Assembly (NCBI RefSeq): GCF_041261205.1
Contig: NZ_JBGCCH010000008.1
Location: 1-64,000 of the forward strand
DNA: 64,000 bases
Reading direction: 5' to 3'
Origin: Catenulispora sp. MAP5-51
Lineage (GTDB): Bacteria > Actinomycetota > Actinomycetes > Streptomycetales > Catenulisporaceae
The notes beneath the pieces were generated by a model that ran no database searches, was not told where the DNA came from, and worked only from the letters and a program-made list of their open reading frames with translations. Both the position numbers and the translations under genes were made by a program. Shown here piece by piece: positions 52,481-59,201 of this stretch (positions are counted from its first letter, which is position 1; the number at the start of each line of letters is the position of its first letter).

Positions 52481-52522
52481 GTCGGACTGTGGCGGCGAAA
52501 TCAGTTCGCCGCCACAGCCGAC
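52481..52522. terminator. strong hairpin upstream of Y-like RNA 1
   Basis: GTCGG and CTGTGGCGGCGAA (52481-52499) pair with TTCGCCGCCACAG and CCGAC (52505-52522), leaving only A52486 unpaired: 18 bp with loop ATCAG. No T-run follows. It may insulate the divergent ABC operon from the RNA gene beginning at about 52542. Confidence 0.55.
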
Positions 52523-52541
52523 GTCCGGCTACTGTTGACCA

Positions 52542-52700
52542 CGGCGCCCGGTGCGCAGGCAGCGGTTACTTCTGGATCCAAGGGTTGCCGGTTCGAGTCC
52601 GGCTCGTCTCCCTCGCGGGCGGCGGTAGCTCAATGGGCAGAGCATTGGGACCGGCTTCGGCCGGGTCTCCGCAGCCGACTTGATCTCGGGCGCCTTATTC
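52542..52700 (+). ncRNA. Y-like RNA 1 with permuted tRNA mimic (YrlA-type)
   Basis: The ends pair perfectly: GGCGCCCG (52543-52550) with CGGGCGCC (52687-52694), followed by TTATT. GGTGCGCAGG...TACTTC (52550-52572) and GACTTGATCT (52677-52686) resemble the two strands of the Ro-binding helix of Y RNAs. Inside, in order: GGATCCAA (52574-52581), T arm GCCGG-TTCGAGT-CCGGC (52587-52603), acceptor-like stem 52604-52625 capped by a loop, D arm GCTC-AATGGGCA-GAGC (52628-52643) and TTGGGACC (52645-52652), which pairs back with 52574-52581. A CCGGC-TTCG-GCCGG hairpin (52651-52664) follows. U8/A9, G18G19 and TTCGA positions are all tRNA-like. TACTGT (52530-52535) is a candidate -10. Confidence 0.78.
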
Positions 52701-59012: not shown

Positions 59013-59201
59013 AGCGCCTCCCGGTGCGCAGGAAACGGATACTTCGTAACTATAACGTCCCTAAGGTAGGGCAGTATCGGACGGCTTCGGCCCTCTGATC
59101 AGGCCTGAGAGCTTCGGCTCGTGCTAACCAGGCGAAAGCCCAGGAGCGGAATCCGTCGCCGACCGTCCGCTCGCGGACATGATCTCGGGTGGCGTTTTTT
59201 C
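59013..59201 (+). ncRNA. Y-like RNA 2 with 23S rRNA helix-69 mimic
   Basis: The ends pair: CGCC-T-CCCG (59015-59023) with CGGG-T-GGCG (59086-59094 plus 100, i.e. 59186-59194), followed by TTTTTT (59195-59200). GGTGCGCAGG...TACTTC (59023-59045) matches RNA 1 at 20 of 23 positions, and GACATGATCTCGGG (59176-59189) matches it at 13 of 14. Instead of the tRNA mimic, 59045-59069 reads CGTAACTATAACG, two bases, CCTAAGGTAG. This equals the universally conserved helix-69 loop region of 23S rRNA at 23 of 25 positions. It is followed by hairpins with TTCG loops (59083-59092, 59109-59120) and a GGC-GAAA-GCC hairpin (59131-59140). No open frame crosses it convincingly. Confidence 0.75.

Follow-up and report, generated by a model that had tools for sequence, protein, structure and literature searches.

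The closest described system to the RNA gene treated here is YrlA, a bacterial Y RNA in which D, T and acceptor arms are set on a basal stem tethering the Ro60-type protein Rsr, with DusA and TruB as modifying enzymes and PNPase at the tRNA-like domain (PMC8394870). In three dimensions it has been presented as a circular permutation of tRNA (PMC11472068). The gene in question lies at 52543-52694 on the plus strand of the first 64,000 nucleotides (nt) of contig NZ_JBGCCH010000008.1 of Catenulispora sp. MAP5-51 (GCF_041261205.1), a stretch referred to as the window. Like YrlA (RF02553; Salmonella YrlA, PDB 6CU1), its predicted product combines a Y stem made from both ends with permuted D, T and acceptor arms (PMC8394870, PMC11472068). 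It differs from YrlA in its score with the Rfam model (30.2 bits against a threshold of 69), in its position away from rsr, in an extra UUCG hairpin, and in that its genome was found to hold four further Y RNAs, so that five of several kinds are recognized.

Two other systems bear comparison. The Y RNA of D. radiodurans, which joins Rsr and PNPase in RYPER, shares with the window system an Rsr-type protein and a Y stem (PMC4726728, PMC8058203, PMC7790460). The likeness drawn here concerns these two features, and the actinobacteria considered here differ from D. radiodurans in possessing arrays and dispersed sets of Y RNAs. The Yrl RNA of M. smegmatis, which is bound by Rsr, is likewise an actinobacterial Y RNA (PMC4726728), which makes for a likeness of kind. 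YrlA has further been predicted in other mycobacteria and in one prophage (PMC9569102, PMC8190616). According to PMC7790460, work on what Ro60 proteins and Y RNAs do in bacteria, RYPER included, had as of 2020 been confined to Deinococcus.

YrlA-type Y RNA is thus a kind already known. The best overall explanation of the window locus, to which we assign a probability of about 0.85, is an independent gene for such an RNA in Catenulispora, a genus of soil bacteria, with a proposed role as an Rsr adaptor.

Architecture of the window RNA

That the locus encodes a YrlA-type Y RNA is almost certain. Evidence independent of the genus comes from the covariance model R2, derived solely from alignment A6, which holds 45 Y RNAs of other genera and none of Catenulispora; these were taken from 83 non-Catenulispora full forms of 130-156 nt by leaving out near-duplicates, Leu-like forms and two of 47 diverse ones. 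R2 gives the window RNA 96.7 bits (E 8e-22) and ranks it best in the whole 10.9-Mb genome, ahead of matches on contigs C7 (88.8 bits) and C5 (61.7 bits). The Y-stem model R1 gives 66.6 bits; it was built from 37 Y RNAs (alignment A1) that include the window RNA and its C7 copy. E-values of both models are rough owing to a short calibration. At a loose threshold, the Rfam YrlA model RF02553 aligns over its full length to 52559-52678, with 30.2 bits and an E-value of 2.3e-4 in 901 nt.

The initial annotation had described a T arm, a capped acceptor-like stem and a D arm in permuted order at 52542-52700, with a Ro-bound stem in place of the anticodon arm. A sequence of this form does lie there, and its arms and architecture are confirmed below; the body of the predicted RNA is better delimited as 52543-52694, because the strands of the Y stem end at these positions. 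The outer Y helix pairs 52543-52551 with 52685-52694, and the inner one pairs 52558-52565 (GGC-A-GCGG) with 52669-52676 (CCGC-A-GCC). In the 24 sequences of alignment A2, which include the window RNA, double changes affect six of nine outer and five of seven inner pairs, and every inner cell is paired. A1 and A2 were both hand-picked among the extracted Y RNAs. The inner 5' strand is followed by an unpaired TTACTTC (52566-52572), largely invariant in A1, A2 and A6; the 3' side, from 52677 to 52694, consists of the element GACTTGATCT and the covarying outer strand CGGGCGCC.

Within this stem, the tRNA parts follow each other in the order T, acceptor, D. The position of the anticodon stem is taken by 52577-52581 paired with 52645-52649, with double changes in four of five pairs and 91.6% of cells paired in A2. 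The equivalent of the variable loop (52582-52586) leads into the T arm (52587-52603), which has five base pairs (bp), all cells paired in A2, and a TTCGAGT loop. The acceptor-like hairpin (52604-52625) is capped by a TCGC loop and comprises nine positions, seven equivalent to those of tRNA plus two; it contains a U.C mismatch (52609/52620) and two U.G pairs, and five of its seven tRNA-equivalent pairs show double changes in A2. U8 and A9 (52626-52627) then precede the D arm (52628-52643), whose stem is invariant in A2. At the junction, a UUCG-capped hairpin (52649-52667) shares its first base with the anticodon-like stem. It is present in the same-genus orthologues, with an altered loop in L012, and in no other row of A2. 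The outward extension of the anticodon-stem position in the initial annotation, which would pair G52574 and G52575 with C52651 and C52652, competes with this hairpin, and an anticodon stem longer than five base pairs is not supported. The bases initially called tRNA identity positions are indeed kept, although they are better named tertiary-structure positions: U8, A14, the 15-48 pair, TTCRA and the two G residues of the D loop. In the T and D loops, where modification by TruB and DusA would be expected of a YrlA-type RNA, the window RNA has TTCGA and the GG dinucleotide.

No single tRNA gene of this genome can be named as a donor of the module, since the best match to its D arm is tRNA-Asn/Lys (17 of 19 points) and that to its T side is tRNA-Met (16 of 22); a module copied whole from one of them was therefore rejected.

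Covariation, conservation and the alternatives they bear on

The proposed pairs are strongly supported by comparison with relatives. In A2, 96.9% of cells are paired, against 80.6% in shuffled alignments, 23 of 38 pairs show double changes (14.2 in shuffles), and double-change cells number 139 (43.7 in shuffles). None of 500 shuffles reached these values, and versions with slid partners gave 35-48%. The 45 sequences from other genera in A6 behave in the same way, with 92.4% of cells paired (74.6% in shuffles) and 285 double-change cells (81 in shuffles); here the D stem covaries too, and the weakest helix is the anticodon-stem position (74.9% paired). The flanking helix, whose conservation in relatives had been put forward as a check of the initial annotation, is both conserved and covarying in its outer and inner parts.

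The constraint extends to tertiary structure. Positions 15 and 48 of a tRNA pair across loops, as either G15-C48 or A15-U48. In the window-type RNA, these positions (A52633 and U52586) fall in separate permuted halves, and the pair is nonetheless kept in all 24 sequences of A2 (13 U-A, 11 C-G). It is also kept in 94 of the 96 full forms among the rsr-linked Y RNAs described below (55 G-C, 39 A-U, 2 neither); 2000 shuffled trials averaged 49 and reached 67 at most. Both kinds of pair occur within one locus in 25 of the 58 loci that have full forms; this mixture argues for repeated change, although related sequences are not independent. The permuted tRNA body is thus under tRNA-like secondary and 15-48 tertiary constraint, and its paired ends form a covarying Y stem.

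These observations bear on two alternatives that start from the order of the parts. A T arm, acceptor and D arm follow each other at any tandem tRNA junction, where the 3' half of one tRNA precedes the 5' half of the next, and R2 itself gives a partial match inside a tRNA cluster at C6:235124 (36.5 bits, model positions 42-109); the element could on that account be what is left of neighbouring tRNA genes or of an attachment site. The two halves are, however, linked by covarying pairs in the acceptor stem, the anticodon stem and at 15-48, they are enclosed by a covarying Y stem, and the element keeps 82-100% identity across the genus. A remnant is accordingly rejected as scarcely credible. The same order of parts is that of a circularly permuted tRNA, which raises the equally slender prospect of a permuted gene maturing to a functional tRNA. 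There is no anticodon loop, the anticodon-stem position running into the Y stem instead, and the acceptor is closed by a TCGC tetraloop with no CCA end. ARAGORN finds no tRNA at the window RNA, a silence to be expected of any permuted tRNA body. The replacement of both the anticodon loop and the CCA-bearing end, by the Y stem and the TCGC cap, led us to reject this explanation as well.

The gene is conserved within Catenulispora. Full-length orthologues, 82-100% identical, are present in eight of the nine other genomes of the genus, and each of them retains one or more of the genes next to the window Y RNA; the ninth genome (G003) is an assembly 81% complete. A hexamer resembling a -10 element, TACTGT (52530-52535), stands 7 nt 5' of the predicted RNA start and was recognized by its match to the consensus. 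TAC(T/C)GT occurs upstream of six of the eight orthologues (L007-L012) and TACGGT upstream of L014, with none at that place in L013. More broadly, TAnnnT was counted 44 times at a distance of 2-8 nt ahead of the first Y RNA in 79 arrays and eight times ahead of 121 internal ones, which are not a neutral control as their leaders mostly consist of another Y RNA. It could be argued that the window locus is a pseudogene, a dispersed copy no longer bound by Rsr, considering its distance from both TROVE genes of the genome and the mismatch in its acceptor stem. Its retention across the genus, the pair-keeping stem changes in L008-L014 and the upstream hexamer kept in most orthologues speak against such decay and make it very improbable.

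The gene is flanked by two minus-strand open reading frames, a sugar-binding-protein gene and a RibD/DHFR-like gene, named from their translations. Just 5' of the -10-like site, at 52487-52517, lies a perfect inverted repeat of 13 bp, CTGTGGCGGCGAA/TTCGCCGCCACAG, which may be an operator or an upstream terminator. Searched with Rfam at gathering thresholds, the whole window gave a single match, to a group II intron at 14-88 on the plus strand (59.8 bits).

TROVE genes and the Y RNAs beside them

The initial annotation had named the absence of any TROVE/Ro protein from the genome, together with a lack of conservation of the flanking helix, as what would overturn it; neither is the case. Two TROVE proteins, both over the Pfam cut-off, are encoded in this genome (10.9 Mb, 87 contigs). 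One of them is matched at 86% identity by Rsr of C. rubra (L228, by tblastn), the AlphaFold model of which has a predicted local distance difference test score (pLDDT) of 83.7. At E <= 1e-3 this model matches 13 PDB entries, each a Ro60, Rsr or TROVE protein, among them 2NVO (D. radiodurans Rsr), 1YVP (Ro with RNAs) and a Ro60 of Thermus phage phiLo; a PDB search by sequence returned just 9kop and 9l5y.

Y RNA genes stand directly upstream of both TROVE genes. The 5' part of the window RNA has a second copy, 82% identical, at C7:158039-158103, and the Y RNA that holds it ends 20 nt upstream of the probable start codon (ATG) of the C7 TROVE gene and has a Y stem like that of the window RNA. This C7 RNA aligns to the whole of R2, with a D arm unlike any tRNA of the genome (best 8 of 19). 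The Y RNA on C2, a bare stem, ends 11 nt upstream of the ATG with which the second TROVE gene probably starts.

Such RNAs also co-occur with TROVE genes across genomes. In a sample of 60, made up of this genome and others of its genus, family and order, TROVE genes are present in 36, and R1 found Y RNAs in 35 of these 36 and in none of the 24 TROVE-negative genomes. This search was run at E <= 1e-3 with stricter filters than elsewhere, at the cost of weak matches, and 29 of the 35 Y-positive genomes had supplied R1 with a training sequence; the other six (G031, G037, G042, G050, G052 and G056) had not. When the surroundings of rsr were searched with R1 in the top 80 among 511 relatives (Streptomyces, Kitasatospora, Nonomuraea, Planomonospora, Actinomadura and others, at least 10 of which belong to the 60 genomes), 200 Y RNAs were found in 79 loci, all upstream of rsr and on the same strand.

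Binding of the window Y RNA by Rsr is very probable. Several observations nevertheless weigh against our explanation of the locus. One TROVE-positive genome of the same family but another genus (G012) and one of the 80 rsr loci (L302) are without a Y RNA by R1. No -35 element is recognizable upstream of the window RNA, and a -35/-10 pattern fitted to the window matches only two of 79 array leaders and, among the eight orthologues, just L007 and L009. Folding of the single sequence is unremarkable (z -1.09 for the whole RNA, -1.22 for the module), and the minimum-energy fold of the module differs from a tRNA shape. Finally, the 30.2 bits obtained with the Rfam YrlA model, although aligned end to end, fall short of its gathering threshold of 69 bits, which leaves the window RNA outside RF02553 as drawn. 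The same applies to its relatives: none of 49 rsr-linked Y RNAs (19 loci) reaches that threshold, and at E <= 0.05 the model finds nine places in seven loci, with 30.9-48.2 bits. At its curated threshold, the Rfam YrlA model thus misses the actinobacterial Y RNAs examined here.

Y RNA modules and their possible roles

R1 recognizes five Y RNAs in the genome, at C8:52541 and C8:59014 (both in the window), C7:157964, C5:313232 and C2:686047; those at C8:59014, C5:313232 and C2:686047 were outside its training set. The second Y RNA of the window (59014-59196, plus strand; R1 39.3 bits, E 1.3e-6; R2 32.1 bits) shares the Y stem of the first and differs from it in lacking a tRNA body. The start of its module, GTAACTATAACGTCCCTAAGGTAG (59046-59069), is instead identical at 21 of 24 positions to GTAACTATAACCATCCTAAGGTAG in the 23S rRNA of this genome (L205), a stretch that we take to be helices 69-71. 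The ungapped score of this block is 18 against the sense strand of 23S rRNA and 11 against the antisense strand, and the best of 150 Markov versions scores 14; in a plain whole-genome search, the match ranks only at E 0.93, and Rfam offers nothing better than E 6 for this Y RNA. RNAs of this type occur in six of the 10 Catenulispora genomes, with a different loop in G005; in G007 the first block is missing, and the RNA lies 10 nt from a tRNA-type Y RNA.

The 79 rsr loci with Y RNAs contain one to five of them, separated by 3-20 nt in 113 of 121 neighbouring pairs. These tandem arrays upstream of rsr (L228-L307), in Streptomyces, Planomonospora and other actinobacteria, combine bare stems with T-arm-only and complete tRNA-mimic RNAs. 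Sorted by simple rules, the 200 rsr-linked Y RNAs comprise 96 full permuted tRNAs and 55 bare stems; a further 37 have a T arm without a clear D arm, and the remaining 12, two partial matches under 60 nt among them, fall outside these classes. The full set leaves out the 104 that lack a T arm or have a D-arm score under 11 of 19, and the tRNAs used as reference for scoring were those of this Catenulispora only. Among the 96, D arms of the class TRGCTCA predominate (76), followed by Glu-like (8), Gln-like (7) and Leu-like (5) ones; the label Gln-like is our own reading, and the scorer ranked an odd tRNA-Ala from this genome as closest to these arms. In the variable loop, the three bases that precede the T stem follow the class of the D arm: GTC, GTT or GCC in 69 of 76 TRGCTCA forms, NAC in all eight Glu-like, NGT or NGC in all seven Gln-like, and CGT or CAT in all five Leu-like forms. 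A test for a variable-arm hairpin in the Leu-like modules was also positive in 53 of 76 ordinary modules and is, for that reason, without discriminating power. In L026, from a Streptomyces-like genus, the D arm resembles that of initiator tRNA-Met (15 of 19, next isotype 10).

Further Y RNAs and related elements were noticed in the genus. The one at C5:313232-313342 (minus strand), also represented by L151, L152 and L158, is unlinked to rsr and has a T arm and an acceptor hairpin with no D arm; in G002, G008 and G009, its counterpart lies close behind a Y RNA with a Glu-like D arm. Two other unlinked Y RNAs, L067 (G002, C326) and L080 (G009, C83), carry a long module with no T arm and no recognized resemblance. 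At C22:84699-85039 (minus strand; L308/L309), an element of about 340 nt consists of two tandem permuted-tRNA modules with no recognizable Y stem. It is 87-97% conserved in eight of the nine other Catenulispora genomes, scores 47.9 and 27.5 bits with R2 and 35.4 and 19.8 bits with Rfam YrlA (the second at E 0.86), and is passed over by ARAGORN.

The Y RNA beside the main rsr gene of Catenulispora is bare in six of 10 genomes (G001, G002, G004, G006, G008 and G009) and has a T arm in the other four. The window gene is thus a tRNA-mimic Y RNA away from rsr in most of the genus. A mechanism can be proposed on this basis. The RNA would be transcribed from the -10-like site at 52530, and its Y stem would bind the outside of the Rsr ring. 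The tRNA-like body, projecting away from Rsr, may then be handled as a tRNA by modifying enzymes such as TruB and Dus, and may act as an adaptor bringing PNPase or tRNA-like substrates to Rsr, as in Deinococcus RYPER. In Catenulispora, this adaptor would be supplied in trans, the bare stem being encoded beside rsr in those six genomes and the full tRNA mimic at the window locus. We give a RYPER-like adaptor function of the window Y RNA even odds.

A different use of the same RNA must be weighed at this point, in which Rsr merely stabilizes it and the tRNA body serves as a decoy, competing with tRNAs for a nuclease, for instance an anticodon nuclease, or for a modifying enzyme. The tRNA-like domain of YrlA has been proposed as a possible competitive inhibitor of anticodon nuclease (PMC7790460), and several kinds of D arm would suit several decoys. 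With the anticodon loop replaced by the Y stem, however, an anticodon nuclease would lack its cut site, and we consider a decoy unlikely.

The adaptor role can be placed in a broader proposal, put forward tentatively since we hold it to be possible rather than probable: the Y stem might be a general Rsr handle carrying interchangeable RNA mimics in actinobacteria, with the modules of one genome copying different RNAs and the window RNA as the trans-acting tRNA member. These modules would comprise several tRNA kinds (with D arms of class-I-, Leu-, Glu-, Gln- and initiator-Met-like type, all but the last accompanied by matching variable-loop bases), half tRNAs, nothing at all, and the block resembling 23S helices 69-71. 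We found no report of tandem Y RNA arrays, of Y RNA modules of multiple tRNA kinds or of an rRNA-like Y RNA in the open-licence literature, and such reports may be in print elsewhere. Catenulispora and its Streptomyces relatives provide natural module swaps on one Y stem, so that the role of the tRNA mimic becomes testable where bare, half and full forms can be compared within a single cell. If the Y stem is indeed such a handle, a different class of structured RNA would be reached through each module, either by Rsr with its nuclease or by a modifying enzyme.
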